In this document: positions 9,252-49,400 of the stretch, piece after piece
Layout of the letters: each line of letters begins with the position of its first letter
Numbering within the stretch: the stretch's first letter is position 1
DNA from: Trebouxia sp. TZW2008
Taxonomy: Eukaryota; Chlorophyta; Trebouxiophyceae; Trebouxiales; Trebouxiaceae
Length of the DNA stretch: 64,000 bases
Assembly: GCA_002118135.1 (NCBI GenBank)
Contig: BDIU01000051.1
Coordinates: 124,001-188,000, forward strand
Direction of reading: 5' to 3'
Notes under the pieces: model-generated
The model's input: only the letters and a program-made list of their open reading frames with translations
What the model was told of the DNA's origin: nothing
Databases searched by the model: none
Position numbers and translations under genes: made by a program

Positions 9252-12200
9252 TCATTGTATGCCAATGAACTTGGCGTACTGCACCCATTGTGCTCCTCCC
9301 CAGAATGTGTTGCCAAAGCGAAGAATGAAGATCAGTCCGGACTTCAGTGCAGGATTCCTAACATACATGTCCTGCGGACAGACACGCGGTCATTCAGGCT
9401 GAGCTTGCAACCAGAGCGGAGACAATTTATAATCATCTCTCTTTAGATTGGGGATGATCTGATCTCATCGCTTGAGACAAGATAAACACAGATTTCATTA
9501 CTCTCAATCGCCAAGATGAGGATGATAACAATGCTTGCATGCATAGATGCTGTTAAGCAGGGGTCACAGATGCTACCTGTACCTTGGATGAAATCAGCAA
9601 CCTGAAAGCAGGTTGCCGTTGCAGTGTGGCTCCATCTTGAGACTGTCGTTTGTGCAACAAACAGTGCCCAACTGCTGTGAGCAAAAGTCTGCATGGTCTG
9701 TAGCATGATATAGTGTATGGCAAGGTGCATAATATAGACCGCAGCTGAAATGATGCTGACTTGGCTGACTTGAACACTTGATTGACACTTTCCTGTAGTC
9801 AGGTCCAGAACAAGCTGGCCTGGTAGGACAGGCTTTGGCCCTTTCACACCTAGCATTTGTGCTGTGCATTGTGCACACTAGTGCATTCAATGCGGATTTT
9901 TACTGTTGTTATGTTTGCATGGAACGCGCACCAGTGCCCGCTCCTCAAAGCCATTGACCAGCTGATATCTGACATTGGTGCTGGAAGCCACAAATCCGCC
10001 CCACGCTATGCTGTTGTCCAGGACTGGTGCCAGCTCCTTGTCCTCTTCTTCTCCTGCTTTCTTGACCTGCTGAGGCTGCTTTGCCTTGGACCTCTCTACC
10101 TGCAAAGTTTGTCCAAACATTACAATTTGATTTTGAATGTGAAACTGACTGTTTTTTGTGATGTCTAGCACTGGGACCAGCTCCTTGTGCTCTTCTTCTC
10201 CTGCTGTCTTACCCTGCTGAGGCTGCTTTGCTTTGGACGTTTCCACCTGCAAGTATCATTGAATAATGTAAATTCTGCTGACTTCAGCTCAAAAAGTCAG
10301 ACTTCAAATGCACAATCTTTGCTGTTGCCCAGCACTGACGTTAGCTCCTTGTCTGCTTCTCCTCTTGCTGCTGTGACCTGATGAGGCTGCTTGGCTTTGG
10401 ACTTCTCCGTCTGAAATCAATATATTGCAAAGCGCTGATCATGCTTAGTCACAAGCTAGCCTGGCAAGACAGGACTTGAGCCACACATGAACAGCACCTA
10501 TGCTAGATTGCAAAACTCATTTATGCTCAGTTTGAGTATCAGCATTCAGTGGCATGTTGCTGCGGCCCAGGATGAGTTGTTGCATCAGTGCCAATGACAT
10601 GCAAGCCGAGTGCTTTGTGAGCATGATTTGCTGGATGCATGCTATGCTCTTGAGGGCCTTGTGCTCTGGCTCCATTCATCATGCAGCTACATACCATTGC
10701 AAGGTCTGCAAAGACAGGTGAGGCTGTCTATCGTCAGGACAGAGGCAGCCATGCAGCTGAGTCCTGTCAGAAATCAGTCCATGCAGGTTGCGCAAGTGAT
10801 CAAGTTGTGCATGAACTGGTGGGTGGTACACAATGCAAATGGCTTACCAGGTATTTGGTGAGGCTGTGGCCAAACATGCTTGCCACAAAGCTGACAACAA
10901 AGAATTGGGCTCCTCTGTAAGCGATTGTGGCTGCTCTTTGCGCTGAGTTGTAGTCTCCCACCTGCACATTCAGCAGATGCAGGTATTGCTTGCAGGATTT
11001 TCCACATCCCAGCTACATGCCAGACCAGCATTAACATGTGGAGGTAGGCTTTTCATGCACTCCCTGACATGTTCAGCTGAAGTTGACAACATATTTGTGG
11101 GCTCCTCTGTAAGCTATTGTTGCTGCTCTTTGCGCTGAAATGTAGTCTCCAACCTGCACATTCAGCAAGTGCAGGTGTTGCTGCCAAGGGTCTCACACAT
11201 CTCAGCTGTTTCAAAGGAACGCAGGACATGACTGACTCCACGTATAGGTGCGAGCCTTGTGTAACTGAGTTTCAAACATTAGTGTGCATGCTTGCTGAGC
11301 CCTGACTTGCCGGACACCCTGACCCGGACAGCCTGACCCTTGTAGCCACGCTATACAATGCAGCAACATCTGCTTGTTGATGGATGATTTTCCCAATCAA
11401 GTTGTGTCAGCATGTCAGTGCAATGCGTATGCTTCCTGCAACAGCTGTGCCGGATCCATCAGGCAGTGATGAGCTTGGCAACACACCTGATACCTGCCAC
11501 AGCGCCCTGATGTGGGTTACAGGCAGGGAGCAGCCAGGGCAGCACAGCATAGCACAGCACAGCACAGCACAGCACAGCACAGCACAGCACAGCACAGCAC
11601 AGCATGATACAGCACACAATGATACAGCACAGCATGACATGCACAGCACAGCGTAGCACTAATTTGCCCTAGGACTTACTTGCAGAGCATGTCCAGGCAG
11701 TGCATTGATATAGCGTGCAAAGCTTGTATTGGCTTGTGGCGAGAAGGACCTTGTGGGTGATAGCAGCCACACCACAGCAAAGTCTCCAATCAGTTCCAAT
11801 GCCATGTCTGACAGCACAAAATCAAACTCCTGCAGCACCACATTCGCTTATGATACACAGCTCATCACTGGCGTGAAGTCTACACTGCTGCAATACTGCA
11901 GTCACTCATGACACACGACTCATCAATGACGCAAAGTCAGACTTCCTGCAGGACAGCATACAATTGAGACAGAAGGCCTGGACCATGGCGTGTGCATCAT
12001 GCACACAGTCACTGAATGTGCCATGGAAGCAAAATTGATTGCTGGCTTGCATACATCAGATACCTTCCTGTTGAGTTGCATCAACAACCTCACTATTCAA
12101 TGATTGACAAAATTAGATCGAGAATTGGGGCCATGTGGCAACCTCACTCATCAAATGCTGCAAACACACCTGAGCCTGTTGAAGCTGCTGCAACAGCAGC

Positions 12201-14135: not shown

Positions 14136-17100
14136 CCTGCCTGGCATCCTGCAGGCCAAAGGCAGCCATCTTTACCCTTACAAGTCCCAAGCTGGCCGGG
14201 AAGCAAGACTGCAGGAGGGGTCACAGGGCCGCCAATTGAGACAGGGGCGACCCTGCCTTTCAGAGACTCCTGCCGCTCCAACACTTTCCCTCAGCAGCGG
14301 CCTGTTGCCATTGGAACATCACGCAGCGTCACTAGCGGAGCAAGACAAGCACAATCAGCCTTGGCACAGCCAGACACCCACCCCAGCTCTGCCCCCCAAC
14401 CCTCCATTCCGGCCCTAGACGCTGTCCACATGCACCATCAGCTACCATCTGCAGCCCACACAGGCGCCCAGTCACCTCACGCCATGCAAGCTGCAGCACA
14501 GCTGACAAGCGGCGAACACGGGGTGGCACCCCACAGACCACCCGTAAGCATCTTGCTGACCCCACGCCATAGCGCTGGTCAAACAGGCTCCCCGCATTTG
14601 CACACTGCTGCATCGCCCTTCCAGCACTTCACACTGACAGGTATCAACTCAGCGGGACCGCTGCCTCTGTCGCAAGATTTAGCAGCCCTGTCACAGCCAC
14701 TCAACGGCCTGACATCCACCTCTGGCGGCATGCAACCAAGCTTCAACCCCCTGGCTGACACCTCTCAGCAAGACCATGCTGCCACCTCAGACACAGATCA
14801 GCCAGAAAGTCCTGCAACTCAACCCCAACCTGAGCATGAAACAGACAAGCAGCAGCAGCAGCACCAGCACCAGCACCAGCGTGTGAAGCATTCCTCGTCC
14901 AGCAGTGATGTCAAGGCCGCAATGCCTAGCCTCCCGACCACCCACCCAACCCGGTCGTTGCAAGCTCAAGCCTTACAGTTTGTGCCAGATGGTGGAGCCC
15001 GTGAGATCAAGAGTGAAGGGTATGATGGCTTAGCAGGGGAGGATGACTCTGCCCATACCTGGGCAAACACCAAGCGCATCAGGTGCTCATTACACGCTCA
15101 TACATTGTCTGACAGCATGCAGCAACTGCGCATTGAAACCGCTTTATCTCAATTTTCTCAACCTCTGATTTTCCTCTCCATTTACCTTCTGCTGGCATCA
15201 CAGTGTAGGTATCACAAAGCAGTTGTTGGAAACCTGTCAAGCTGATCACAGGAGTGCCATGTATGGAGCCGGCGACACAGTTATAGATGACATGCCAGTC
15301 ATGCCTATGGAAGACAACAAGGACCACTGTCGACATCAACATCATGGTCAACTTCACAAAAAAGGGGTTGAAATATGTCATGCTGATCATACGGGAGCTG
15401 GTGATACGGTCACAGGTGACATGCCAGCCATGCCCATGAAGAACAAGGGCTACTGTTGACAACGTCACAGTCAACTTTACAAAACAGGCGTTGAAACACG
15501 TCATGCTGATCATAGGGGACCTGGTGATACAGTCACAGGTGACATGTCAGCCATACCCAACAAGAAGAACAAGGACTACTGTTGACAACATCATAGTCAT
15601 CTTCACAAAACAGGGGTCTGAAACACGTCCTGCTTATCACAGGGGACCTGGTAATACAGTCATGGGTGATATGCCAGCCATGCCTATGAAGAAGAACAAG
15701 GACTAATGTTGACAACCTTGCAGTCCACCTTCACAAACAGGGGTCTGAAACACGTCATGCTGATCACAGGGGACCTGGTGATACAGTCACATGTGACATG
15801 CCAGCCATGCCTATGGAGAAGAACAAGGACCATTGTCAACCACAACATCACGGTCAACTTGATAAAACAGGCGTTTGAAACATGTCTTGTTGATCACAGG
15901 GCCCCTGGTGATACAGTCACATGTGACATGCCAGCCATGCCTTTGAAGAAGGTCAAAGCTGGGCATGATGGTCACGGCCACAAGGGGCAGCCTGTCTCTG
16001 AGGCGGAGCGGCGCAAGATACGCAGGTACAGTGATACATCAAACATACCAACAAACATGCACTAGTTGGGCTGAAAGGCCTTGCCAGGTACGTAAAGTCA
16101 CCAAGCGGCTGTCTATGAGCAACCTAGTCTGTTCACAAGCTGAACCACTTGAAAGCGGGTACAGCAATCTTTCTTCATAAAAACTGCTTTGGTTACCAAA
16201 GTTACTGTCTTTTGGTTAGATTGTCCTTGCTGCAAGGTACCACACTCAGAATGCAGTGATCGACTCCCGACTGCACTGTACTTGTATCGAGAATGTGCTT
16301 GCATCAAGTATCCTTACTAGGAGAAAAAGTGTACTTGCAAGACAGCATTTGCAGGACAACATGTGTAGCACAACTTTGTCCTATGCTCAAACTGATGCAC
16401 ATTATTGTCTTATGCATGATCAATGTTACAATTTGGTTGCTGCACAGGCATTTGCCGGGCTGCCAATCCAATTGCATGGGAAGTATTCTGTGGTGTTGCC
16501 TCAGTTGTCTTTCGCAAGCCTGCAACTTGACATTCAGTCGCATGTTTGTCCTGCTTGTTTGATGCTGATTCAATTTGGTCGACAGATGCAGCCTTGGGCT
16601 GTTTGCAGGCAATAGCTGTACACGCCCTGCCTATACTGAGTCCATTGCCTTGCAGACTTAACCTTGACAGTCAAAGCATGTAAAGCTGTTGCTTGTAAAC
16701 AGCCCAAGGCTGCAGCTATTGACCAATTCGAGTCAGCATCACAAAAACAGGACAAACATACAGCTTTTAATTGTCAGTGACTGTACTGAAAGGCAGTGCA
16801 GTCAGTACAGTCAGAGCATGTAAAGCTTTTGCCTGCAAACGGTTCAAGGCTGCACCTGTTGACCAGTTTGAGCCAACATCACAGGACAGGGCAAAAGTAT
16901 AGCTTCTTTTCGTCAAGGGAATGTTCTAAAAAGCAATGCAGTCAGTACAGTCAGAGCATGTACAGCTTTTGCTTGTGGACAGTGCAAGGCTGCACCTCTT
17001 GACCAGATTGGCAGCTCTGCCACATTGAGCCTTTCGCAAACTGGCTGTTGCAGCCATGTTCCAGTCTCACTAGGAAGTGAACTGTCAGATGTTAATGATG

Positions 17101-19558
17101 CAGCGTTTGCGTCGTCACTACATCATGAGCTCATCCATGACAGATCAAGTCAGTCATGCCAAGTCTATAAAGCGACAAGTATCAGTGCAGGTCCATCTGA
17201 TTCGCACTGACTTCTTGCTGGTGATAATTGCAAACAAGGCAGTTTCAAGCACCAGCAATTGTCTCATGACATGTGGTCATGCTGCTTGAAATTTCTGTCA
17301 TGCGTGCAGGCGAGTCACAAATCGTGAGTCAGCAAAGCGTATCAGGGACAAACGGGATGAGCAGATGGCCCAGATGAGTGAGCAGGTACAAATTTCTTCA
17401 CATACTGCATATTGCATACTGCATGTGCTTGAACATGGCACATTGTTGTGTGTACTGTCAGATTGTTTGTGGGTCTCAAATTTTGCCTCAAAGCGGATGA
17501 TGTCCTGCTGATTTGCTACACCTGGAGAACACGGCTTTTGAAGTGGATCCTTTGCGTTTTTAAAATATCAGCTTGTTGCACGGCACAGCGTGAATGCCTC
17601 GTTAGGATGCCATCACTCACTATGTATGACATTTGCAAGCTCTTGCTGTTGTGGGAATACATTCTTCATCAACAGATGCTTGACCATAACTTCAGGGGTG
17701 TACTCCATCTGCAAGGCAGTAGCCAAACAAATTCTGTTTGCTTTCTTGCATCTGCTGCTGTATGTTTTGCCATGATGCCCTGCATCATTCACAGAAAATT
17801 TGCGCTGGGCGCAAGGGCCATGTACCAACAACATTGACATCAATCAAAGCTACGCTGACAGGGGAAAGAGTACTCATGCTTACGGTGCGGTAATTGGGCC
17901 GTACAAACCACACATGCTACAAAACGTATCTGATAATGACCTGGTCAATGTCATTGGGAAGCAATCAATGCATCCTGACTTTAGTCGTGGTTATGAGTAA
18001 GGACAAGCTGGAGGTTTGCTTTCTTGGTAGCCAAAGCAGTAGTAGATAGACATGAATTTGCTATTACAGGTGGCTCAGCTGGAGGCTCACAACGCTGCAC
18101 TGGTGAAACATATGCACAGCATCAAGACCTGCTGCAGCCAGCTAACTTTGCAGCTGAAGGACTTGCAGCACACCATGCTTCTGACTTGTCTTAGCTGTGC
18201 ATAACAAAAGTCTCTGAATTTGCTGCAGGTGGCTCAACTGAAAGCTCACAAGGCTGCCCTGGTGAACCACGTGCACAGCATCAAGACCTGCTGCGTAAAA
18301 GTCTCAATGCAAGGTTATTCTTCAGGGGAAACAAACCAAGAAAAACACATGTTTGGCAGCTGAAAATGTGCAAGACAAAACCCAAAAACCAAGATGAAAA
18401 TATGCTCTTCATTTTGCAGGTGGCTCAGCTGGAGGCTCACAAGGCAGCCCTGGTGGACCATATGCACAGCATGGAGACCTGCTGCGGCCAGCTCACCTCA
18501 CAGCTGAAGGACTTGAAGCAGAAGTGGTGTGCCACCTGCGTGGAAAATGTAAAGCTGTACAGGAAGATCTTTGAGCTTCGCAAGGCCCTCAATCCAGGTC
18601 AGCCTTGTGGTTGTTGCTTTTGACATCATATGTCAACTGTTTCAAGCCATCTGGTATGGATTTTGGTTTGGGTTATTTCACATGACAAGCTGTACAGGAA
18701 GCTCTTTGAGCTCTGCAAGGTCCTCAACCCAGGTCAACCTCAGTTGTCCTTGCACAGTGTTATTGTTTGTGAATTCCAACATGGAACACATTAACAAATA
18801 TGTTTTATTGTACAGTCAGCTTGCACGTCATAGTCTGTGCACAGGCTAAAGTTTGTGCTTGGCATTGGCAGTGAACAGCATGTTGCATCAGTCCATCTTC
18901 AAACTGTCTATGCATGCTTTCCATGTCAAGCCTTATTCTGTGCGCAGACAGCATGTGTTGCCTACGTTCAGAGGGCTTCTGCATGTAATCAACCCTAGTC
19001 ATCAAACTGCCTGCACACAGCATCTCTGGCTTACGTCGAGACTGCTGCATGGTGTTGATATTGGGCACCGCCTTGCATGGGGTCAGAATGTCTGACCTCG
19101 TGCAATGCAACGCTGGAGCTGCTCCTGCAGGCACAGCAGACTGAATTTTGTGGTTTTGAAATTGATCTTTACCTGACATGTGGGAGCATCTCACATTCAC
19201 GTCCAGACCGTTTGCGCAGGCACAGCAGACTGCCAAATGACAAGCAGGCTGACTATTGTTCTGGGAATGGACAACGGAAGTTGTTTGTAATGCCGTCAGC
19301 TAGTTTTGGCTTGATACCCAGCTGCATATGCAAGCACAGCAGACTAATCTCGACATCGTGTTGTCCTCACTCATCATACTACTCATGACATCAGCATTTG
19401 CCGCTTATGTTCATATTGCTCCTGCAGGCACAGCAGATTCCCAACTGGCAAGCAGGCTGGCTCTGGAGGATGAGCTAGCCTCAAAGGCAACCACTGCTGC
19501 TGTTCCTGTCATTGACGGCAGCACAGACGTTGCTGACACCCGGCTTGTCCCTCAATAG
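14136..19558 (+). CDS. bZIP transcription factor 1 (5' end and exon 2 boundary unresolved)
   Basis: A long open frame (14136-15082) encodes a Ser/Pro/Gln/His-rich activation-type region with a QQQQHQHQHQ run and ends in ANTKRIR at a donor. A short exon ending at 16025 (start near 15942) gives SEAERRKIRR. Exon 17310-17385 gives RVTNRESAKRIRDKRDEQ. This is a classical basic region, with the invariant N-x7-R as NRESAKRIR. Exon 18420-18597 gives the coiled coil (VAQLEAHKAALVDHM, then LKDLKQKW). Exon 19428-19558 ends the protein at TAG. The last three junctions agree in phase. bZIP proteins bind DNA as dimers in the nucleus. The zipper is irregular for Leu heptads. Introns carry a 130-bp minisatellite and decayed copies of the zipper and last exons. 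The first exon and the join at 15082 were not solved. Confidence 0.8.
15241..15960 (+). repeat. Minisatellite of about 130 bp, six units, in a bZIP1 intron
   Basis: Units begin with GCTGATCACAGGGGACCTGG-like sequence at about 15241, 15382, 15505, 15632, 15759 and 15889 (spacing 141, 123, 127, 127, 130). Each contains GTGACATGCCAGCCATGCC followed by Lys/Asn codons, the same sequence that opens the exon ending at 16025. The array therefore repeats the intron end plus the exon start, and the last unit runs into the intact exon. Confidence 0.85.
16555..17010. repeat. Tandem and inverted repeats in a bZIP1 intron
   Basis: Three direct copies of a unit of about 140 bp (starting near 16666, 16808 and 16955; shared GTCAGAGCATGTAAAGCTTTT and AAGGCTGCACCTGTTGACCA). 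An inverted copy at about 16561-16622 faces 16680-16741 to form a long stem. No coding frame is supported. Confidence 0.75.
18070..18300 (+). repeat. Two decayed copies of the bZIP1 zipper exon
   Basis: Copies start after AG acceptors at 18070 and 18229; the intact exon starts at 18420. The first reads VAQLEAHNAALVKHMHS and stays open about 44 codons before a stop. The second reads VAQLKAHKAALVNHVHS and breaks after about 22. A copy of the exon's 3' end (LYRKLFELCKVLNP plus donor GTCAAC) lies downstream, ending at 18732, 135 bp after the real donor. Confidence 0.85.
19131..19360 (+). repeat. Three decayed heads of the bZIP1 last exon
   Basis: GCACAGCAGACT-type starts after AG lie at 19131, 19220 and 19335; the intact last exon starts at 19428 (spacing 89, 115, 93). 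Only the last is followed by the open frame LALEDELASKATTAAVP. Confidence 0.75.
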
Positions 19559-21602: not shown

Positions 21603-22100
21603 GCTATTCACTTGTGAGTAGGTGGATTGAAAGTGAGCGATGTCTCAGCGCCACATGTCTAGCATTGATTTGAGCATCAGAAACAATTTTGACAGGCCCT
21701 GCTCACATGGCTTTTGGGTTGCAGCATGATTTTGGTCTGAATTGTTAGCATTGACCACACTTAGCAGGATGAGCTAAATCTGGTTTTGTCTCAACGTGAC
21801 TGCCCCATTCTGAATGCAGTGTCTGTTTCTGCCGTCATCATCACATTATACTAGACTTGCCTTTCAAGTCTACATAGTTGATTTCAGCTCTTGCCTGGCA
21901 CTGAATACCTGTCTGTCTCTTAGCATCAGCGCTCTTCAAGCGCAGTTTCAGACTATTGATCTTGCTATTGTTTTCTCTTCAGCAGCCACATGGATATGTC
22001 AACTAGGTCAAGATGGCAGGATGCTTCCCACTTCATTTGACACTGTAAGCTGCGCATGCAATGGTCACAACATGTCAACAACGATGCTGTTTCAAAGGCA
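21603..22100. other. Intergenic between convergent ABM-like and coiled-coil genes
   Basis: About 500 bp holding two 3' UTRs. No supported frame or repeat. Confidence 0.35.
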
Positions 22101-25100
22101 TCAAGCCACTGCTGGCTGAGTTGTGCTTGTAGGCTGATTGCCTGTATATGTGTCAGATAAGGCACTTGCATGCATTTGACTCTCAGCAGCATTTGCTGCA
22201 ACACCATTGCTGATGCCTTCTGCACTTGACTCAGGCTCTCGGCCCTTGTAAAATGCTTCTTTTGTATGTTCTGCATCAGTCTGCAATGCTGTTAGGCTCC
22301 CTGCACCATCAGCAGATGCATTTCCTGCTGCGACTTGGTCAGCTTCTGCCTCACGCTTCTCAGCCTCGAAACTTGCATGTCGTGTGTCAGCCTGCAGATC
22401 TGCACCACCCAAATCTGATGCCTTCTGAGCCAGACTCATGTCTGCAACCTGTGCTTCTCTGTCCCATTCATTCAAATCAGCTCCTGAAGCCTGTGCATCA
22501 CCATTCATTCGTGCTACATGCTCTGTTGTCTCAAACCCACCATCTGGCGCTTCAACAGCTGAAGCTTCTTTCTCATCATTGACTGGAGGCTTGATGCTGG
22601 TAGACGCAGTGATCTTGTGCAACAGTTGCACAAGGGGGCCATGCTGTACATGCTGCACTGCTGCTGTTGCTGCTGCTGCTGCTGTGTCTTCATCTGCTGC
22701 TGCTGATGCTGCTGATGTTGCTGCTGCTGATTGCTGCACAGCGTGCAAGTTCTGTGCAAGATCTGCAAGGCTGTTGGTGTCATCCAGCGGGTCCAGCAGC
22801 TTCTCTGTTCCATTGCCTGCAAGCAGAGCAGACATTTGAGGACAGGGCATTTCGCTGCCAGCAGGTTGCAAGTGACCTGGCTGCTGCCTTCACTATTTCC
22901 AGTTCTGATGCAATGCTCAGCTGAATTCAGGTGCAGAAGCAGCTGATCAATCCGGCAGACATGAACTTGTCAGCAATTGCTGTCGACATGCAGAACAGGC
23001 TGCCAAGATGCCCAGCAGTGTGCAGCATGTCATGATGAGAACCCCCAAGGGATGCTTTCACCTGCTGCAAGCTAGTGTGACAGCAAGGCAGTTGTCATTA
23101 TGCGTATTAGGCTGGCAAGATGCTCAGCGCCGTGCAACCCAAATCCCAGCAACTTGGCATAAACTGCAAGGTATGCTGAGCACTGTTTGCATGCCAAAGG
23201 GTAGCATATGAAGCTGCTCAAGAAAGACACAGCCAAACAGCGCTTACTTGTCTCGTCCTGCAAGCCATCGAGGTCAAAGCTGCCTGAGCCAATGGGGCTG
23301 CAGCCCCTATCCTGCATCTGATGGTACTTCAACCTGTATTTGCAACACAAGGAATCAGGGCACACTGTGATATGCACCAGGCAACGATGAGCATGATCTG
23401 AAGTGGGCTGCAGCCCCTGTCTTGCAACTGATGGTACTTCAACCTGTTGTTGAAACACATGGAGTCAGGACGCACTGTGATATGCACCAGACAACGATGA
23501 GCGTGATCTGAAATGGGCTGCAGCCCCTGTCGTGCATCTGATGGTTCTTCAACCTGCCATTCCAGCATACGAAGTCAGAGCACACCCTCAAACGCAGCAA
23601 GTAACGACCAGCATGATCTGAATGAAAGCAGCATCACATTGCGCCTGATGTCAGAGGTTGCTGACCTGCGCTCTGTCTTGGGGGTGTGAGCAGACAAGCC
23701 CCAGGGGGTGCGGCTGGGGTCAGCAGTCTTGAACCTGCTGGAGCTCCTGAGGCTCTGCTGCCACTCCCTCTTTGGCTTCTTCTTCTGCTCATCCCCTGCA
23801 GCATGCAAATCAGACTTCTCAGATCTATGATGACAAAAGCAGCTATAGGCAAGTTGCAATCACAACAGCAAACTGTCGATTTTGTGTTTATGAACTATAA
23901 ACATTTGAAGTGTGTACGGCCTGCCTGTAGCTGGTTGGATCTGCACAGAACAGGCAGACTGTAATTGCAACAGCTGGTGGCCATACAGCAGACAAGGACC
24001 TCTGTACGCCATGCGTCTTCATATGCTCGTGATGCTATGACTTACTTGGGCAGCGGCCGGTGCTACAGCGCATCAAACGCAGGTGATTCTGCATGCATAT
24101 CACTGCAGCTCAAAACCCAACACAGGAGCCTGTGTTTTGCTCCAACTGAGTCAACACACCATGCTCAACAGCTGCTCATTAGTTCACGAGGCTTGCCCCA
24201 AATACCGAGTTCGCTCAGATGCGCCTGGCAGCCTTTCTCCTTCCTGCTGCTCCAGGGTCTGTCCCAATCACAAACAAGATGTTTTGATCCTACTCACCCA
24301 ATGTTTTCGACTGCTCGAGGGCTAGACAGAGCTCTCATATGAATTCGATGCCTTACCTGAGGCTGTACCGACACTGCTCTGACTGGTTTCAGCCTGGATG
24401 TGGCCACTGCTGGCCTCTGGGGACAGGCCGTCAGGTGAAGGGGAGCTGCCCATTGCCTCTGAAGGGGAGCTGCCTTTTGCATGCCCTTCAGCCTTGCCCA
24501 CTGATGGAGGCTCCAAAGACCCCTTGATGTCTGTGAACTGCAGTCAGACACACTTTTTTGATACTCCTGGACAGGCCATCAGGTACAGGGGAGCTGCCGA
24601 ATGCCTCTGAAGGGGAGCTGCCTTTCGCCTGCCCTTCAGGCTTGCCTGGTGGAGGCTCCAAGGAATCTCTGATGTCTTTGAACTGTAGTCAGATACACTT
24701 TGTTGATACAGTGACTTCTCTTTGCAACGACTGCTTTGGCTCCCAAGAACAATGTCCTTATATCATGTGTTGTCCTTGCATCAAAGAGAGGCCTTACACT
24801 GGGTGTCCTTGCAAAGAGAACTTACTGTACTCCTTTCATCTACATGAAGTGCACTCAGACATACAACGCAAAATGGCTGTTGTAAGCTTGACCTTGTGTG
24901 CTATTGATGTACGGCACCATGAGTCAAATTGAAGGCTGCTGTGGATTTGCACCTCATACAGCTGAAAAAACCTTTCACAGCAACAGACATTGCTGTATCA
25001 ACGACGTGACAGCACCAGCATGTCCAAGTGGGGTTGGAAGAAGGTAGAGTGACAAGGGGGAGGAGATGATGGGAGCGTGGGGGTTGGGAAAGAGCATGAG

Positions 25101-28100
25101 CATACCCAGAACTTCTTGGAGGCAACTTCCTCCTCGTAGATGCGCTTCTTCTCGGCTTCATCCTCAGCTTCTTTGGCCGCGGCTTGCTGCTGCATGCGTA
25201 GGAAAGCCGGCGTGCGCTGTTCCTCCTGCTCCACAGCTGCCTTGTACATCTGCACTCCAGAACAAGACAATTCCTGATGATTTGTTTTACAAACCGTCTC
25301 CAGTTCATGCTGTGCACGCGCAGGAAGGAAGGGTGCGCTGCTCCTCCTGCTCCACAGCTGCCTTGTACATCTGCACTCCAGAACAAGACAATTCCTGATG
25401 GTGTGATTTACAAAGCGTCTCCAGTTCATGCTGTGCACGATCAGGAAGGAAGGGTGCGCTGCTCCTCCTGCTATGCTGCTGCCTTGTACATCTGTATTGG
25501 AAGAGGGATAGTATCAGATGGCTACTGCAAACATTTAGTTTTGAGACGCTGTATCCCAGTTGGTTAGGGCATGGGCAGACAGGCTGTGCTGCTGCATGTG
25601 CCGGAAGGACGGCGTGCGCTGCTCCTCCTGCTCCACTGCTGCCTTGTACATCTGCGCACGTGCAACACATTCTGTTGGTGACCATAGTCGCAGCAGTCGG
25701 GTTGCTGTTTGAATGTACACAAGCAGTCAAATGTGCTGTTCCCTGTGCTGCACTGCTGCCTGGTGCATCTGCATACATGCTAAGATCATACCTGATTGCA
25801 ACTGTGAGCATGTTTCGGTAATGAATTGTGTGCGATATGCACTGTGAATGTGCAAGAAGGCTGGCGTGTGCTGCTCTCCCTGCTCCGCTGCTGCCTTGTA
25901 CATCTGTACACATCATGTGAAATTGTGGTGAAGCACTTTCTGAGGATCGACGAGACTGTGATAGCCTCAAAAGCTGTCTGGAGTATATGCTGTGCAGGGT
26001 CAAGCAGGCCCGCGCACATAACTCCTCCTGCTTCACAGCTGCCTTATACATCTGTGCACCAAAAGTGAATATGTAACAGCCGACTGAAACAGGGTCTGAG
26101 AAATGATGAGACCTTATCACCACAGGCTGTTCAGGATACGTCCTGTTGTATATCTGCCCATGTTGAGCATTTGCGGATAGTCCTCAAGTCATATCAGCCT
26201 AACGAGCTGCTTGCATGCAACATCAGGAGTCACATGTGCTGATTCTCCTGCTCCATACTGACCTCGTACATCTGCACATACAATGTGTGCTAATGCTTGC
26301 CAAGCCGCTGCAGCTTCTACGGCAGCACACCTGGCAGCTGCCTTGGCAGGTGTGAGGGAGGCATTAGACGAGGCCAGACCTCACCTGATTGGTTTCATGC
26401 TTGAAATCATGCCTCCTGTGTAACCTTTAGTTAAAGCGCTGCAGTGGTGACAATATAGCAGGCTTGTGGTAGCACACGTTTGAGCCGTGCGTCACCTGAT
26501 TGGTTTCATGCATGAACTGGTGCCTCTTCTGTGACTTTTCTTCCCGGCGAGCAGCCGCTGCTTCAACAGCAGCGCGCCTGGCAGCTGCCTTGGCTGCTGC
26601 TTGAGCCTCCCGTTGCTCTGCTTCTGCATCCTGCAGCATGCCACCTAGGTTTGCTTGTGTACTACACGAGCATAGACCCATGCAGTCTATGCAATCTATC
26701 CATGCTGCCTATGCTGAATTTGTAAGTCACTGCATTTGCATACTTCTGCAAGCCTCCAGGACTGAAGTAGAATGGCTTGCATCTTCTGTTCAAAGCATTC
26801 TCCTATGCTCACTGCGCATGTGACCTCCTGGCGACTACATAACAATTTCCACACCCATAAGGCTTTTCAGACACATAGTGCAACAACAGAACAACCTTCA
26901 CTTGTAACGTCAACAAGTCACTGCATTGCTTGCCTGTTTGGCCCTCTCAGCTTGTGCCCGCTGCTGAGCCAGGGCTTCCTTCTCTAGAGTGAGTTGGCGC
27001 ACTCTGTCTAAGTCATCTGCTCTGGGCAAACTGACCTCCACCTGAGAACACAATCAACGGCTGTTGTGCCACTGCAATTTGCAACACCAACTAATTGCTC
27101 AATCTGGCTGCAGTTATTTTGCTCAAGTGCTGTCTTCTTCAGTGTGAGCTTGCATACCCTCTCCAGATTATCTGCTCTGGGCAAAGTGACCTCCACCTGA
27201 GAACACAATCAGCGGCTGATGTGCCGCTGCTGTTCATTGCGCTAAGTAAATGCTCAACCTGACTGCTGTGATCATGCCCAAGTGCTTGCTGAATGTGACT
27301 GCTGTGGTCAGGTTTTCTGCTCTGGGCAAGCTCACCTCCACCTGCCAGTTCAAACCACAGATGGTGTGCCACTGATCATGAGGCTCATTGACTACTGTTG
27401 TTATGCACAATGCATTGCTGCCTGCAAGATTTCCTGTTGTGGGCTTGGCCAGCAGTTGAGCAGATATGAGGGTCAGCACGCATTCTGTCTTGTTCTACGT
27501 CGATTCTTGGACAGCACACACTCACATTCAAGACAAGCTGACCTGGGGAGACAGGACACCAAACAATGCATTAGAACGCATCATCATCAGCAATGCTGAA
27601 CAGCCTCCAGCCATAACTTGCCGCCTGACAATAACTCTTGTCCTGTCCAGCGCTCAATGATATGCTCAGGCACGCTATCAGCACAGCATACATTGAGCTG
27701 TGTGTGGTTGAGGAACAGACCTCTTTGCGCATTGGGGCAGCTATGCTTGCATTTTTGTAAGACAAACCCCAGCCCTGCTCACGCTGTTTTGCCTGCTCAG
27801 GATCCAGTGCAGAAGCTTGCCGCCTCAACCCTGGAATTGCATCAAGGCTAACACTGCTTACTGTAGGCAGCTGCTCCTTACGTGTTTTCTGCCTGCGCTG
27901 TGCCTGCTGTGCAGGGATGGTCTCCTTGCTAGCTTCGTTTGCAAGCTGTGGCAAAGTTGTGCTGCCTTTGTTGGTTGTTGTTTGTGATGAGGCTGACCCA
28001 TTCACAATGTTCTTGCGAGCTGTTGTGATGGTGAGCCCACGCCGTTTAGGCACTTTACTGCCAGATATCTCCTGGCCTGTACAAAGGTTCAAACTTAATG

Positions 28101-39351: not shown

Positions 39352-42300
39352 TCACCCTGAAGCTGCAGCAGAAGCCGAGGCGCTGCCGCCAGAAGCCGCA
39401 GCAGCAGCTGAGGCACTGCCGCCGCTGTGGTGGAAGTTGCCATAGCTGTCACCGTAGTAACCTCTGCCGTAGTAATCGTTGTAGTTGCTGCCATAGCCAT
39501 GATCATAGTCATCTGCACAATCGACAATGCTTTCAGTGTTCTTCAGTGTTCATCTCAGAGCATTGTGCCTTGTTCAGAGATCATTTCACCATGAGCACAA
39601 GCTTGCTGCAATCATCCAGAATGCCATGAAAGCGACGTTGACGCAGGCTCAGATGCTGTCAGACGCTGTGGCAAGCAGCAAAACATAGCAAGCGCTTCAT
39701 GAAGAGGTGACAGCCAGGAGCAAGGCTTGCACCAAAGCTGCAGCTATAGAACAAACGCGGTCTAGATGATAGGTGGCACAAAAGAAGCAGCATTCAGGCT
39801 GATGCCAAAAGAGTGCATACCTGAGGTGGCAGCTGCTGCAGCAGCAGACACACTTGAGTGCCCAAAGTAGCCATCATACCCGCCTGCAAAGATTACAAAC
39901 GCATTTGAGTTGGTGCAGGGGGTGTGTTCAGCAAAGATGATCAATCATGGAGCAAACACAGAAGCCTTGTCTGTCTTTCATTGCTTCCACAGTGCAGATA
40001 TGACTGATGATGCACAGCTAGGCACATCTGTGGGACAAATTGTGTCTGCAACCAGCCTAATGCTGAACAACAGGCAGCAGCAGCAGCAGCAGGAAGCATC
40101 GGTCTGGTGCAAGCAGAGGGACAGAAGCAGATCTGCCCAAACATGAAGCTCACAAGCTCAGTGCTTAACGGCATCAGCAGTAGCAAGCCTGAAACTTTGC
40201 AACCCATGCAACGCATGGCATCTTCAGGCAGGTATGACAGTGTATGTGTCATACCTGAAGAAGCAGCAGAAGCAGCTGCAGAAGCATCTCCACCACTGGC
40301 AGAAGCAGCAGCCGATGCGGCAGATCTGTCATGGTAGTTGCGGTATCTGTAGTAAACGTAGCCTAGAAGGCGCCTGCCTGAAGCTGCAGCAGAAGCTGAG
40401 GCACTGCCGCCTGAAGCTGCAGCAGCAGCTGAGGCACTGCCGCCACTGTGGTGGAAGTTGCCATAGCTGTCGCCGTAGTAACCTCTGCCATAGTAGTGGT
40501 TGTAGTTGCTGCCATAGCCGTGGTCGTAGTCATCTGCGCACCAGCAGGACTTCTGTATGCCATGTACTCTACACACATGCTGCAGAGACATGCAAATGCA
40601 ACAATCACATGTGAGCGTGTATGATGCGTGATGAAACAGAGTAGCCAAAAGCAAACTCCTGTACAATGAAGTGCGGCCAGCAGCATATCAAGTGCCAAGG
40701 TGCTCTTGGTCAGATGATAGAGATGGAGCAAGCAATAAGCAGACTGCGTTGCCACAACAAAAGCATACTGTCAAGACAGCTTCAGCATGTGTCACACATA
40801 TTGGCCCAACAAGATTTTGAATCCAGTTGCCACATTCCGTTCTGTGCGCACAGCGTCTGTCAGCAATTCAAGCATCATCGCAAACATGTGGGCACATCTT
40901 TGCCAGCAACAGTAAGATCTTCTTGCCAACATCAAAAGCACGTCAGAGGTGGTATAGACAACAGAAGGTGTACCTGAGGTGGCAGCTGCTGCAGCAGCTG
41001 ATACGCTTGAGTGTCCAAAGTAGCCATCATACCCGCCTGCACATCACAAACCTTTTGCAGCATGCCACACATGATTCCAAACAGGTGCAGCAAACACTGC
41101 GCAGGTACAGGAATTTCCACAGTCACTGGTGTCAACGGCGAGAACCTGGTGACACAGGACTGCATTGTGTATGTGCAATGCTAGAAGACCATTGAGCAGG
41201 CAGATGCGGGTCAATTAATTGGATAGGAATGGCCAAAGGTGACTCACAAGTATGCTCTGCAAATGATAAAGCTGCTTTGACAGACTATATGCTATCGCTT
41301 TTAACTCTTGTTGCAAAGCTTGAGTTTGCGCAAATGCACCATAGGAAAACAACATCATCTGGTCAACAGCATGCACATGCACCTGAGGTTCAGTGCTTGA
41401 GTCAGCACCTGCTGTAGCAAGAGCATAAGCTAGTACCTGAGGAAGCAGCTGATGCAGCTGCAGAAGCATCTCCACCACTGGCAGAAGCAGCAGCTGACGC
41501 GGCAGATCTGTCGTGGTAGTTGCGGTATCTGTAGTAGACGTAGCCTAGCAGGCGCCTGCCTGAAGCTGCAGCAGAAGCCGAGGCACTGCCGCCTGAAGCT
41601 GCAGCAGCAGCTGATGCGCTGCCTCCGCTGTGGTGGAAGTTGCCATAGCTGTCGCCGTAGTAACCTCTGCCGTAGTCATGGTTGTAGTTGTGGCCATAGC
41701 CATGGTCGTAGTCATCTGCACACCCACAGATTGTCACAACATGTGCTCCAAGTTGCTGAGTGCATGCTGTGCAATGGCGAGTAGCTGCAATGCAGCTGAA
41801 CGGTGTGGCCAGCGACACAGACGCACACTGTTGCTGGAATGATGAAGAGTTGCTGCTAAGCAGTCATTGTGAGCAGTGACGGGTCCTGGGCATAACAGCA
41901 GCAGACAAGCATGCACAGCATGAGCCAGCAGACAGTCTGGCACTGAAAGGAGTCAAAGTACCTGAGGTTGCCGCAGAAGCAGCGGCAGAGACGCTGGAGC
42001 TCCCAAAGTAGCCATCATACCCGCCTGGAAAGCACAGGGAACTGTCAGTGATATGCAGAGCACATGATTGCACAGACTCAGGGCCAGGTATGTGCATATG
42101 CCGCGCACATACATCAAGCAGGCCACTGACAGCTTTGGGAAGAGTCGTGTATGAGTGCAGCACTTTTGGCCGTCATATGCCATGCAGGCAATCGTGTGCA
42201 TTGCAGCAGTGCTTGAGTCAAACCTAGCAATGCTCTGCCGCAACAGCCAAGCTTTGCAGCATGCATGCATCAGGCACTGTCAATCCCAGCATGCATGCAT

Positions 42301-42851
42301 CAGGCATTGTCCAGCACGTCCATGAGCACACAAAGGTGGAAGAAAGCAACTCCTTAAAGTAGCACCGGTCACGCAGGTGTGCACGGGAGCAAGCACATTG
42401 AGAGGGACTAGGCATAGCGAGTGATCAAGGCAGTCGGCAGACCGTACCTGAAGAAGCTGCGGCTGCTGCAGCAGAAGCACTACCACCACTGGCTGAAGCA
42501 GCAGCTGACGCTGCCGCTGAGTCGTGGTAGTTGCGGTACCGGTAGTATACGTAGTGGCCAAGTAGCTGTCGCTTGCCGGCGCTCTTACTCGCACCTGCAG
42601 CGTCACAGCATTTGGGAGCCGATCGAAAGAAGCATGTGCACGCCTGGCAGACACAAGGACATCAAGTCTCTGCTGAGCCCGTGGGCAGGCCAGTAGGCGG
42701 AACACGTTCAGGCTGTTGCGCCTTCATCCGACAGAGTCACTGTGCAGTGTGCAGACGTCATAGCAGAACTTGCCTGAGTCGGACTGTAGCTCACGAGCCG
42801 CGCTGGCGAGACCGCACGATAGCAAGACCAGTAGACAGCCTTGAGATTCAT
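39352..42851 (-). CDS. Tyr/Gly/Ser/Ala-rich repeat protein, probably secreted
   Basis: Seven repeat exons, all entering and leaving in phase 1: 42594-42448, 42024-41962, 41715-41437, 41036-40974, 40533-40255, 39883-39821 and 39512-39352 (stop). They alternate two modules. Module A is DDYDHGYGSNYNHYYGRGYY, then GDSYGNFHHSGG, Ser/Ala blocks, LLGYVYYRYRNYHD and more Ser/Ala. Module B is GGYDGYFGHSSVSAAA. The composition recalls silk, glycine-rich wall or adhesive proteins. The first exon is uncertain. From ATG 42851 with donor after 42770 the phase fits but no signal peptide appears. The other frame of the same DNA reads GCLLVLLSCGLASAARELQ, an ideal signal peptide. With a GC donor (AG|GCAAGT after 42774) it also fits, but its ATG must come from further upstream. 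Confidence 0.75.
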
Positions 42852-42862
42852 TGACGACCCGG

Positions 42863-43451: not shown

Positions 43452-46400
43452 TCAATCCTTTTTTTGCAAAGGGTCTGCCCACTTGAAGGTTTTGCACTGA
43501 CCCTCTTCCCCTGCTGCTGGTGGCCGCGCACACATGTAAAAATGGCGCCCTGTACAGCAGTGCCAAATCACAACTTGCAAGAGCTGCAGATGTGAGAAGA
43601 TCCTTCCAGGACGTTCAGGGACTCATTGGGCTGATCAAGGAGTCAGTTGCACGAGAGGTTCTGTCCAGACTGTGCCGCATACATAAAGCTTGTAGCCACT
43701 GCTCAATTGCAGCAAAACAGTAGCCGCTAGACCAAGCAAGCTATCAAACTTTGTGCTGTATCTGCACTGTGCCGCTTCTGACAGACTGGCATGGAGGGAA
43801 ATCAATCGCATCTGTGCGATGCCTAGCTGCTGGGTTCCAGACCTGCCTAGCAAGCGATACATGCAAGCTACAAGTCAGCACAGTGGACAAGCTCACCTCT
43901 ATTTGGCCCGCTCTTATTGACACGCTTCTTGATACAGGGTTCTTGATGCCCTTTGCACAGCGGAGCTTGCCCCAAAGCAACAGGCCTGTCTGGAGAGAGG
44001 TCTTGACCCTGTTCTGAAGGCTCTTGGCCTTCATTGACAGACCCTACATGTGATCAGCCAGAATGATCAAACTGTGTTGATGCATGAGTTGTTACTATTG
44101 AGACTTCATTGACTGGAAGCACACACAGAAGCACACAAAAGCAGCAGAAAGGTCCATGTCATGACCTGTCTTGTAGCTCTCTTTGTAGCATGCATAGATA
44201 AGCAATGCAGCTGCAGGCGTAACAGCATCTCAGACTTGATGATGATCTTTGGTCAGGAAGAAACAATGACTCCCTCATGTCAGCACAGGACCAAACTGGT
44301 TGGAGAAAGTTGATAGCTCCAGTTCTTACCTAGCTGGGCCTGCTGAGCCTGTCTAACTTGCAGTTTGAACGACTTCGTGAAACAAACTGGTGACTCCCCA
44401 CCATTGGCTTTGCATGCAGAGCGCATGCTATACACATTGCAAGCCGTACCACCAGCAGCAGTACCAGATAAGCTCTGCTCTTGCTCTGCCAGATGAGGCA
44501 CTGCTCGCACAGAGCTGATCACTTCATGACAACCTGGCATTGGATGCAGAGACCATGCTGTGTACAATGTTCTAAAGCTTACCGCCAGCAGTCGCATAAG
44601 CCAAGCTCTGCTCTTGCTCTGCAAGATGAGGCGCTGCTCACACAGAGCTGATCACTTCATGACAACCTGGCATTGGATGCAGAGGCCATGCTGTGTACAA
44701 CGTTCTAAACCTTACCGTCAGCAGTAGTATCAGACAAGCTCTGCTCATGCTCTGCGTGTTGAGGCACTGCTTGCTGTGTCTGTGCTCCTTTGGCGCCAGT
44801 TAGAAAGCCTGTTATGCTGCTCTGACCTTGTTGCTTTGCTGGCGACTTGACAGATGCTTTGTGAGGCGCCGATGGAGCAGCTGTGCCAGTAGCCCCTTGC
44901 TCAGCTTTTTTGGCTTGAGGCTGCTGCTGCACCGCCCTGCCTGCAGCATTCCTTGGACATTCCAGCACATTTGAAGCAGAAACAGTGATACTTGACAAAC
45001 ACAATGTAAGCCTCCAGAATTTGCATGATGTCACCCATTAATGTGGAGTGATGTTGCGGTGCAGTGCAGATGCAGTATAGCATGATGCCTTGTTCATGTA
45101 TTACCAATATGTTGGTGACCTGGGCTACAGCATGTGCAAGAAGAGGGTGATGCTGACAATATGTCATGAGGAAAGGTACTGATGAAATGCAGTGCAGGCT
45201 GCTGAAACACAGTATGTCTATACGCAGAAAACTTGAACATTTGACTATGCAGGGTGCAGCAGTGTCTGCGCATCATCTGTAACAACTGTTTCAAGGTATG
45301 ATGCAGCAGGGCATGCCTGTTTGGGCCCTCTGTTGCTCTTCCTGGTCTTGCTGCTCAAGCTCCTCCATTGATCTGGGAGGCGTGTCTTCTTCTTCACGCC
45401 TGGAGCGCTTACGACCCCTGCTTGCTGTTGAGGCTGTCATCGAATGATTTAGCCAGCTTGAAATGGTGGGCTTGCCTACACAGTACCAGTGCGCAGGTCA
45501 GATTGCTTGCTGTTGATGCTGTAATGGACACGATTCCGCCAGGTTGATCTGGGAGGCATGTCCTCTTTTTCACACCTGCAGCGCTTATGACCCCTGCTTG
45601 CTGTTGGTGTTGTCACCAGATGATTCAGCCAGCTTGAGATGGTGGGCTTGCCTGCACAGCATTAGTGTGCAGGTCAGCTTGCTTGCTGTCAATGACGTGT
45701 GCAGGTGCAGTTGCTTGCTGTTGGTGGTGTCATGAAAATTTTCAGCCAGCTCAACATGGAAGGCATGTTTTCTTCTTCGCATCTGGAGCGCTTACGGCCC
45801 CTGCTTGCTGTTGAGGCCGTCATTGAATGGTTCAGCCAGCTTGAGATGGTGGGCTTGCCTGTGCTACCAGGTTGCATACAGTCTGGCACATGTGTACTGT
45901 GATGCTAGTATACACATGCAATTATGCGAATTTGACAACAAAGTCATGCTGCACACACTCAACACAGAGCTTCTGTGAACAAGCACTTCTCACCATGACG
46001 TCGCCCAGCTAATTCAAAGCTTTCAGCAGCATACAACACAACCAAGGCATTCATGCAGCTATGTGATGCACTCAGGCTGAGCAGCCTTTGCAGCCTCTGA
46101 AGCTAGCCAGTCATGTCCAAGGCAGAGCAACAGTGCAACTTACTTTGCGTCTGTGTTCCTGCAAACAGGTGGCTTGTACCATGAACTGCAGCCAGGCAGT
46201 CTGAAGCCAGTGCTTTGAGCGAGTAGTACAATGCCAACGATGCTCTGTACCTGCAAAGGTGTGGCTTGTGCTGAGAGCTGGTGCCTGGTAGTCTGAAGGC
46301 AACTTAAGCGGAGGAACATCCAGGTCTGCCCAAACAGGACAATGGTCTGAGCCCATGCACTCAGTCCACAGATCACAGCCAGTAAAGCTGTCCAGGAAGC

Positions 46401-49400
46401 CTCTGTCCTGCAGAGCACTACAAGGGATGCACCAAGTGATCTTGAGCTCGAACACATGCGGCTGACACTGGCACTTGGGTACAGGAACATCCAGGTCTGC
46501 TCAGACAGGACAATGATCTAATCCCATGCACTCAATACACAAATCACAGCCAATGAAGCTTTCTATCAGGTCCTCATCCTGAAGATCAGTCCCAGGTATC
46601 TCTCACAACAATGACAATAAGGATGTGCAAAGACTTGCTTGCAAACATGGCAAGCAGTGTACTGTTGCTGGTTTTCTGCAGCTGTTGTCAAGTGGTACAG
46701 CATTTGTAGATGAAAGTTATTTGAGCATGACATGCAAGGTCAGCATGCATGATGCAAGGTATGTGAGAGAGCGCTACTAACAGTCCATGACCTTGGTCTA
46801 GGAGAGGGGCAGATGTCACTGTGCTAGTCCTGGACTGCCCTTTCATCCAGTCATATCACCACAGTCGCTTACCTGTGCAGCACTTGATGTAGAAGGGAGC
46901 TCATCGTTTTCAGTCACAGCTGCATTGCTGACTGAAGCGCCTGCACAGTCTACTGCATCAGCAACTAAGACGCTGCTGGATTCTGCTGCAGGGCTGCTGT
47001 TTACAGCCCTGTCCGCAGCTGTGGGGCCAGCAGCTGCGGGCTCATTCACAGCTGCGGGCTTAGTGGCTGCAGCCCTGTCCACAGCTGTGGCGCTAGTGGC
47101 TGCAGGCTGGTCCACAGCTGTGGAGCTCAGGGCTGCAGGCCGGCCAGTGGCTGCAAGAATGAAGTCCACTCTTGAGCCGTAGTTGGTTGTTCGAGCGCCA
47201 GTCTTCTGATTCCACACTGTATAGGCCCTTTCCCTGCAGAAACCTTCTTATCAAAATCTTCCACAAAGAATGCATTGCTGATTTGCAATCTGCTCACGCA
47301 GGCTCAGTTGCATGCCATGGCATTAGTTTGACAGCTGCAGAATGCTAGCTCTAAAATGCTACCTGGTGCGCTGAATGCAGCAGACAGCAGATAAGCGCCG
47401 TATGTGTGACAAGCACGCATGTGCTCATGCATACCTTGCAACGCAGACTTGACTCAAGTATGGCTGTACAATTTACAACGCTAAGCTCACAGCAGCCGCG
47501 TGAAGCACAAATGCATGGTGCCTAAGCATGCATTGAAAGTGCATCTGAAAGGAAGGAGTTTGACCACATCAGATATAACTGGGTGTCAGAAGGCCTTTGC
47601 CCAGGGCCAAAATGTCTTGAATCCCTTTGCGATCAAGGTGGTGGTTCAGGAATTACATTGACTGACATATGAAGATGCAACATGCAATGCTGAGCATACC
47701 TGATCAGCATTGAGCACTAACAGTGCGTTCCTATGCATTTGTTGACAAGTCATTGATGTGGATGTGCTTGTGGTGTGGTGTCTGTAGTAAAGGGCAAACA
47801 TCTCACACCTGTCAGGGTGAAATTTCCTGAACACGTCTGCCAGAAGCCCTTCATCTGGGGCCAAAATGTCCTGGAACCATTTGCGGTCAGGGCGGTGGTT
47901 CAGGAACTGACTGTGTGCCAAGGGTTGGGACGCTTTGTTGCACCAGTCACAGTGGTCAAGCATGTATGGAGCAATGTTAAGGTCGCCCAGCAGTATGACA
48001 GAGCGGCCTTGAGCCAACATGGCATCTATGCGGTGCCTCAGAACCTACGAGACACAGAACAAGCATGGTTATGATCATTGACATCTTCACCAGCATGTTG
48101 TATATGCTTGCTAGTGAGCACTAAGCACAATCGTCAAGCATGCCAGGGGCAATGTTGAGGTTGCCCAGCAGTATGACAGAGCAGCCTTGAGCCAACATCG
48201 CATCTATGCGGTGCCTCAACACCTGAAAGACACAGAGCAAGCATTGTCAGATTCATGCGTATGCTTGTTAGTGAGTGGCAGTCAATATGGTTGAGCATGT
48301 AAGGGGCAATATCGAGGTCGTCCAGCATAATGACAGAGCGGCCTTGAGCCAACATGGCATTCATGCGGTGCAATAGTACCTAATAAACGCAGAGTTACGT
48401 CAGGCTGTGCCTCGGCCGGTGCAAGTCATGGCATCATTGCTGGCTAGCCTAGATGTGTGGACAACGCATGCATCAACATAAAGAGACTGCATGAGATTTG
48501 TCAAGCAGCCAAGTGAGGCACATGACTGACGTACACTCATTATGCATCTAACATGTGACAACTTGCTGCAGCACCAAAGGGCAAGTTGTGCAGCATGCGT
48601 GACACTGAGCATTAAGTGGATCCTCCTGTCAATGTCAGGTCAGCAACATCTTTGGGTGCTGCAGTAGCATCAACCTCCCTGGCTTTTGGGGACTGGTTGC
48701 CTTGTTGTCTTGATAAGGCTGGCGTTTCACATAGGTTTGTCGATACCCAACAAGCTGAAGGCATGGCAACATCACCTCATACAAGGTCATCTTCATTGCG
48801 AATCGCTCATTGTCCTCATTTGTTACCGCAGGCCCGTATACGTTGAACAGCACAAAGCTGCCATGGTCTGTTATCACACATCGGCCCTGATTGTCAATCT
48901 GCTCCAGATGTTGCTTGCTGTATCTGTGTTGACAGCACAGGAAAGATGTGATAACAACAATAGTCTGATCATTGCAGCACAGGTGTGGGGCCTCAATGAA
49001 AACAGTCAATAAGGCATAGAGCAAAAAGAGTATGAAGATGTTCCAGATGCTGCTTGCGCAATTTGTGTTGGCAGCACAGAAAGCAGATGCAATGATTGCT
49101 TCTTTTAAGAAATTCGACACAACGATATTTTTGAAGTAAAGACAAGGCAGTTGGGAACCAACCACAGCATTCTGCCTGCAGCGGTATCTCTGAGTAAGGA
49201 CAATTTGTTTCATGGACAATCTTTTGGAGAGCAATGCAGTGCTGTAATGAAGAGATGCTGCAGTAAGAGATGACAGACTGTACATTCCAGCAGAGGTGCC
49301 AAGTGTGTGTGGCCTCAGTGCCAGCAGATGGTTAAGCATGGAGCATATTCAGAACGAAGATGATTGCTGCAACAGCAGGGCAAGCATGAGAAGCAGCTGC

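Follow-up and report, generated by a model that had tools for sequence, protein, structure and literature searches.

In the potato RdRp gene, a tandem duplication across an intron-exon boundary created a new intron (PMC4974935). The AGGT model of intron gain, as outlined in a review, requires a matching donor and acceptor (PMC3443670). DNA repair in mammalian cells and worms can produce small tandem duplications as well as patchwork or templated insertions, and such local direct copies have been attributed to CST/Pol alpha fill-in with non-homologous end joining or to polymerase-theta joining (PMC8355091, PMC8654963). The subject of this work is a stretch of 64,000 nucleotides from the green alga Trebouxia sp. 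TZW2008 (bases 124001-188000 of contig 50; hereafter the window), whose introns contain copies of the neighbouring exon edges. An initial annotation had described such copies in six genes: a RETICULATA-related gene, two bZIP genes, a coiled-coil gene, APE2 and a Tyr/Gly-rich gene. The explanation favored here, to which a probability of roughly 70% is assigned, is that these arrays result from many small direct local duplications, a sieve set by the reading frame and the introns, and splicing that persists at the site adjoining the body of the exon.

Extent and Orientation of the Copies

All 15 exon edges listed in the initial annotation coincide with an exact AG or GT on the correct strand, and 14 of the 15 are crossed by a BLAST-significant direct copy on the claimed side, which is upstream in transcription for acceptors and downstream for donors. 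At the remaining edge, 19428, no copy exceeded the BLAST threshold, and a short resemblance was seen by eye. Self-comparison of the window identified 35 direct local repeat clusters covering 18% of its bases. The analysis was extended to a total sample of 254 kb, consisting of the window and 19 further 10-kb stretches (190 kb) from 11 other contigs of the genome (68.5 Mb, 527 contigs). The additional 190 kb contain 73 direct repeat clusters in 17 of the 19 stretches, with four of the positive stretches resting on one pair; the arrays are thus confirmed and are more widespread than the initial annotation had stated. No covered clusters were found in Markov resamples of the 20 sequences (one per sequence). 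The copies are almost exclusively in direct orientation, with 200 direct pairs (offset 60-600, at least 45 nt) versus 5 inverted pairs within 1500 bp, although multi-copy arrays inflate the pair count. When six units were searched across the whole genome, each matched its own locus only (best candidates scored). Direct copies lying close together in the same gene, the mark of internal local gene duplication, are present here.

The copies are a substantial component of the introns. At least 45 bases of copies are contained in 65 of 217 predicted introns, and copies make up 12.7% of intron bases. The proposal that duplication lengthens introns is supported by a median intron length of 590 with copies (n = 65) versus 366 without (n = 152), although longer introns also offer more room for copies.

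Gene Models and Thresholds

Exons were predicted with an exon-intron model that was self-trained on all 20 sequences and tested on the same 254 kb with no hold-out. The model converged on the donor (C)AG/GTRAG and the acceptor TGCAG/G, and predicted 283 exons. GC content in the window is mostly 45-55% (2-kb steps). The model placed 12 of the 15 listed edges at the identical base; it read through at 10099 as far as 10246, missed 27041, and left the gene containing 32297 uncalled. Pfam searches matched 13 of 16 chosen proteins, which were predicted, trimmed, or, in the case of APE2, assembled by hand. The matches include Exo_endo_phos (APE2), RETICULATA-like, bZIP, DEAD_2, PAP_assoc and AP2, as well as RNB, ABC transporter, TPR and Nucleotid_trans. 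In two alignments with solved chains of APE2 and of the ExoIII type, the APE2 model matches with the duplicated segment present once.

Exons scoring below 10 were excluded from the order counts reported below as 62/84 and 32/33 (and the null for the latter), from the analysis of surplus splice sites and from the substitution spectrum, while exons scoring below 8 were excluded from the analysis of intron length and copy content. Pairs with an offset above 650 were excluded from the codon-position, splice-site, offset and identity, spectrum, intron-content and frame analyses, and those with an offset above 300 from the looser-null comparison for exon edges and from the 32/33 order count with its sliding-pair null. 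Pairs with both copies exonic were left out of the codon-position analysis and of the looser-null fractions (4 to 16 pairs, depending on the setting).

Arrays in the Individual Genes

The arrays of the window are given below, in window coordinates.

9932..10420, minus strand: RETICULATA-related exon 9932-10099 with copies at 10159-10252 and 10317-10407 (147-bp unit, open)
10848..11207, minus strand: exon 10848-10961 with acceptor-edge copy 11080-11207 (site scores: surplus 4.6, intact 4.2)
15212..16025, plus strand: about five copies of a 127-130 bp unit, the last holding acceptor 15900 of a predicted bZIP exon
16667..17010, plus strand: intron-only array of a 140-bp unit (in the whole-genome search, own locus only, including an adjacent small inverted copy)
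18053..18597, plus strand: bZIP-gene exon 18420-18597 with surplus acceptor-edge copies at 18070 and 18229
18552..18740, plus strand: donor-edge copy, 18552-18605 recurring at 18687-18740
23248..23622, minus strand: coiled-coil gene exon 23248-23333 with two surplus acceptor-edge copies (110-bp unit)
24357..24709, minus strand: exon 24357-24537 with one surplus copy (145-148 bp unit)
25106..25909, minus strand: exon 25106-25249 with four surplus acceptor-edge copies (the nearest retains an identical 17-nt acceptor)
26381..26630, minus strand: exon 26496-26630 with donor-edge copy 26381-26428
26971..27374, minus strand: array around acceptor 27041, exon uncalled by the model
31926..32471, plus strand: second bZIP gene, uncalled by the model, last copy 32297-32471
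39356..42594, minus strand: Tyr/Gly/Ala/Ser-rich gene with repeated exon pairs 1.0-1.2 kb apart
44405..44936, minus strand: exon 44716-44936 with two surplus donor-edge copies (130-133 bp unit)
45368..45861, minus strand: array of about three copies around acceptor 45475
46251..46599, minus strand: APE2 exon 46251-46407 (GSDHCPVWADLD) with surplus copy 46483-46599 (two in-frame stops in the copy)
47809..48394, minus strand: APE2 exon 47809-48044 (GDLNIAP) with two surplus acceptor-edge copies (sites map to 48223 and 48380)
48900..49089, minus strand: APE2, 48900-48948 recurring at 49039-49089

The array containing acceptor 15900 is additional to the edges listed in the initial annotation. The RETICULATA-related exon may instead extend to 10246 and take in its copy, since the 147-bp unit corresponds to 49 open codons and read-through is consequently as possible as splicing at 10099. 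In the first bZIP gene, the surplus copies at 18070 and 18229 are called as small exons by the gene model, while in the second the copy at 32117 has a broken frame and the copy at 31941 is open and appears constrained. The Tyr/Gly-rich gene, which the initial annotation had placed in the same class, represents a different phenomenon in which whole exons recur approximately 1.0-1.2 kb apart in a repeat-protein gene. The repeated exons of these Tyr/Gly/Ser/Ala-rich modules are 81-93% alike, and their homology ends 3-17 nt into the introns.

Several other features were observed in the window. Just upstream of the array at 16667, a minus-strand copy (83%) of part of its unit occupies 16542-16625; inverted local copies of this type are few. 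In APE2, the donor that follows the FWNR codons (minus strand, 49498-49499) appears by eye to be a GC (CAG/GCAAGT), which would give a non-canonical GC-AG intron. A 514-bp tandem duplication (87%) lies at 59121-60113 in a predicted gene, with the copies flanking a predicted intron. Diverged local repeats are also found outside the six genes at 34096-35118 (approximately 170-bp units) and 56397-58150 (mixed, offsets of 230-1400 bp).

Decay of the Surplus Edges

The evolution of the surplus copies was probed by comparing mismatches at the three codon positions. Mismatch frequencies at codon positions 1, 2 and 3 are.176,.128 and.212 for the 45 pairs that span intron and exon, with.216 in the intron part, and.148,.121 and.253 for 38 pairs that are almost wholly exonic. 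A pair made up of one constrained and one free copy would be expected to differ at half the intron rate at position 2 and near the full rate at position 3, as observed. Stops are present at 15 of 1156 codons in the surplus exon parts of the 45 pairs and 14 of 1063 in those of the 38, where, as for the codon-position counts, pairs from one array are not independent. Furthermore, 28 of the 83 pairs have insertions or deletions in the exonic part and 19 have in-frame stops. Taken together, the pooled codon-position rates and stops fit non-coding evolution, in agreement with the initial view that the surplus edges are decayed sequences and not regular exons.

The splice sites carried by these edges are largely retained. 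In the nearest copy of each edge, excluding copies that are themselves called as edges, the surplus AG is kept in 24 of 27 cases and the surplus GT in 23 of 28, a count that requires alignment at the dinucleotide and is therefore biased towards kept sites. The neutral expectation is 18.7 AG and 18.8 GT (identity-squared); if the intact site is taken as fixed, retention is reckoned at approximately 80%, or 22 AG and 23 GT. In several cases the score of the surplus site is also no lower than that of the used site. A faster decay of surplus sites that would silence them was considered and rejected, as retention is at or above the neutral prediction. The 47 kept nearest AG and GT sites in the 254 kb correspond to approximately 100-200 per megabase. 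If splicing indeed ignores near-identical spare sites without pressure for their decay, each of these introns would be a natural experiment in splice-site competition, and such introns would number in the thousands if the sample is typical. Consequently, the arrays could be useful for studies of intron growth and splice-site choice.

Order of the Intact Copy and the Reading Frame

The initial annotation held that the intact copy is always the last in transcription for acceptors and the first for donors, and regarded this order as the remnant of a neutral sieve. The order holds for the 14 listed edges that have a significant copy. Across the 503 predicted edges, however, 69 have a copy, and the order is obeyed at 46 of these and fails at 23; at other thresholds it is obeyed at 62 of 84 edges. 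Many of the exceptions appear to be edges at which the model calls both copies exons or the unit holds a whole exon. Where the other copy is non-exonic the order is obeyed in 32 of 33 cases. Under the same condition, pairs of the observed shapes that were slid to random positions obey the order in 83% of cases for both edge types. By a hand calculation at 83%, the probability of 14 out of 14 in the window is roughly 0.07 and that of 32 out of 33 is roughly 0.015. The order is forced in head-to-tail copies, because the remainder of the exon follows only the last copy at an acceptor and precedes only the first at a donor; it is not geometrically forced in gapped copies. These results indicate that the order is mostly geometry, with a modest excess that is explicable by selection against copies in exons. 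Since randomly placed pairs already yield 83%, the order does not provide independent evidence for a sieve.

The sieve itself appears correct in outline, as judged by the neutral decay described above and by the offsets of pairs inside one exon. The offset is divisible by three in five of six such pairs, with the sixth in a doubtful model, and the 147-bp RETICULATA unit is one of the five. Among pairs with both copies non-exonic, the offset is divisible by three in 18 of 47. The frame sieve is indicated by these few cases.

Spacing, Age and Substitution Pattern

The nearest-pair offsets fall mainly at 100-200 bp (79 of 117 pairs; 26 of 39 in the window and 53 of 78 elsewhere), with 14 below and 24 above this range. 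It was initially thought that the copies arose purely by head-to-tail duplication, a model that was dropped given the presence of spacers without clear homology to the flanks. Alongside 68 near-abutting arrays, 57 pairs with spacers of 15-130 nt were examined. For 45 of these pairs neither flank reaches z > 2.5 against the spacer, while for 12 a flank does, and spacers without flank homology occur even between copies that are 80-89% identical. Not all of the units are tandem, as many copies appear to be spaced. Block length and offset are correlated among the spaced pairs (rho 0.64), a result that was discounted as the spacer-length filter forces part of it.

The copies are highly diverged. 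Identity exceeds 90% in one of 117 pairs, and the 254-kb sample contains no local direct pair of at least 60 nt within 1500 bp at 95% identity or above. The substitution spectrum is ordinary, with 400 of 724 polarized changes being transitions, and repeat-induced or hypermutation processes were rejected as the origin of the divergence. Judged from the sequences, the spacers would be compatible with filler left by break repair.

Proposed Mechanism

The mechanism proposed for the arrays begins with a very large number of small, direct duplications of nearby sequence, which typically place the copies 100-200 bp from each other. Part of the copies would be joined head to tail, and others would be parted by 15-130 nt of other sequence. 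This step draws on features that comparison of the sequences establishes, namely the copies, their orientation, their range of offsets, their pooled neutral decay and their locality. The source of the copies is probably error-prone repair of breaks or nicks in which neighbouring DNA is copied. Copies that add bases to an exon would survive mainly when the reading frame is kept, while surplus sequence in an intron or between genes would be neutral. Where a copy spans an exon edge, splicing would presumably persist at the site that adjoins the exon body. The surplus edge would then turn intronic and decay neutrally, although its AG or GT would usually be long-lived, and the introns would lengthen as copies accumulate. 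The last or first position of the intact copy would reflect mostly geometry together with the frame sieve. Both the repair mechanism and the splice site used by the cell are inferred. If correct, this mechanism would provide a plain, transposon-free route to longer introns. It would also leave a mutation signature that could be traced to a repair pathway, consisting of 100-200 bp offsets, almost exclusively direct copies, spacers and few young copies.

Several observations weigh against this mechanism. The use of particular splice sites is deduced from coding constraint and not from RNA, and the gene models are self-made, drew on a single 254-kb set for both training and testing, and favor open in-frame repeats, such that the finding of five frame-preserving offsets in six is partly circular. 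Two individual copies do not follow the pooled pattern. Compared with the last copy of its array, the copy at 31941-32061 has changes at 1 of 39, 3 of 39 and 9 of 38 sites at codon positions 1, 2 and 3 and may be a real exon, and the copy at 4148-4336 of stretch L013 has changed at 1 of 61, 3 of 60 and 16 of 60, mainly at third positions. The mean z values of the spacers against their flanks (0.6 and 0.9) are slightly above those of shuffles, and some of the gapped pairs may have begun head to tail and decayed since. A steady process leaves at least as many young as old pairs per unit divergence; because a constant rate should leave many young pairs, either the burst has ended or the assembly has merged young copies. 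Finally, the excess of copies that touch exons is not given by a uniform process alone.

The L013 copy just described belongs to a duplication (3949-4336) in which a whole exon of a DEAD_2 gene recurs together with its splice sites 11 nt away, and a single 1-nt insertion or deletion breaks the frame.

Alternative Explanations

The excess at exons raises the alternative that duplication, instead of being uniform, is directed to exon edges or to DNA rich in exons; nucleosomes positioned on exons or microhomology at the TGCAG of acceptors are examples of how this could come about. Of the 51 arrays in gene bodies, 36 include an edge versus 17.6 +/- 3.2 expected, and the excess recurs outside the window (26/37 versus 13.0), at identities of at least 82% (15/19 versus 6.8), with the strongest exons outside the window (19/30 versus 6.2) and with introns capped at 1200 bp (31/39 versus 16.6). 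Two-copy head-to-tail duplications simulated through the same pipeline fall at edges in 188 of 607 cases, and each of the two classes was detected at 98%. Under a looser null, in which gapped copies and wholly exonic sources are permitted, an excess is still seen (38/62, or.61, versus.36), and over twelve settings 43-88% is observed versus 24-49% expected. The share of homology blocks whose end lies no more than 12 nt into the intron also exceeds that in simulations (19/62 versus 8-13%), which is suggestive only, as these 62 blocks include several true repeated exons. In Drosophila, differences that mark small recent duplications were in excess in coding sequence and in deficit in introns (PMC6380325).

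The size of the excess nevertheless depends on the null, falling to 1.4-1.9 fold under the looser one, and in most settings exon-touching copies are approximately 1.4-2 times commoner than random. The motif TGCAG/CTGCA is not enriched in exons (8.4 per kb versus 10.4 in introns). Moreover, by reasoning alone, a pair anchored in an exon has one copy free to be lost and should remain visible for up to approximately twice as long. Longer survival of exon-anchored pairs could explain the excess, and the contrast of 36 with 17.6 was dropped as evidence of targeting in light of the looser null and this survival alternative. Targeting is kept as a rival that is considered unlikely. A broader reading, toward which more reserve is warranted, would combine targeting with the age and splice-site data. 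It posits a lineage-specific process that copies in nucleosome-scale steps (100-200 bp), prefers exon edges and ran in a burst that has now stopped. This process would have added to approximately 30% of introns and left approximately 100-200 intact duplicate AG or GT sites per megabase, so that the spliceosome must choose the outermost sites without the help of silencing mutations.

A different possibility is that the surplus copies are real tandem exons, either alternatively used or all included. The Tyr/Gly-rich gene does contain whole repeated exons in frame, the two copies with mainly third-position change noted above would fit such exons, the surplus AG or GT is usually intact, and some surplus copies (18070, 18229) are called as small exons. 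The Tyr/Gly-rich gene is the only one of the six named genes with whole repeated exons, however, and tandem or mutually exclusive exons carry both splice sites and are constrained in both copies, which is not what the pooled surplus copies display. Their codon-position rates and stop frequency fit neutral copies, insertions or deletions and in-frame stops are spread over many pairs, and the APE2 copies change the GDLNIAP segment to GNLNIAP and DDLDIAP. Real tandem exons are consequently an improbable explanation for the class as a whole. Repeated insertion of introner-like or other mobile elements would account for the many similar units per intron, but this origin was rejected as exceedingly improbable, since dispersed copies at many loci were not found for the six tested units and the units cross the edges of their own neighbouring exons.

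Comparison with Known Systems

Gao and Lynch (2009), in work on ubiquitous internal gene duplication, reportedly described within-gene duplications involving both exon and intron sequence. To our knowledge, that work does not describe the filling of introns with neutral exon edges at such density. In the titles and abstract openings covered by a literature search, with most subscription papers outside its reach, no intron growth through exon-edge copies at such a scale was encountered.

Similar to the AGGT model of intron gain, the arrays involve local tandem duplication and the splicing out of surplus sequence. The sign of that model, in which the donor of one copy matches the acceptor of the other, was found in 0 of 239 predicted introns, and AGGT-type intron creation was rejected on this basis. 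The arrays also resemble the duplications produced by break repair in that they consist of local direct copies; templated insertions are present at some junctions of the known systems. Duplications in helq-1 worms span approximately 100 bp to 10 kb and have a median size near 1 kb, whereas the offsets here are mostly 100-200 bp. The potato RdRp duplication runs from the 3' part of an intron into the 5' part of the exon that follows, as in the acceptor cases described here. In contrast to that single case, which created a new intron, the surplus edge is here absorbed into an existing intron, and this is seen in dozens of cases. The class of mutation is known, while its scale in this genome is unusual.

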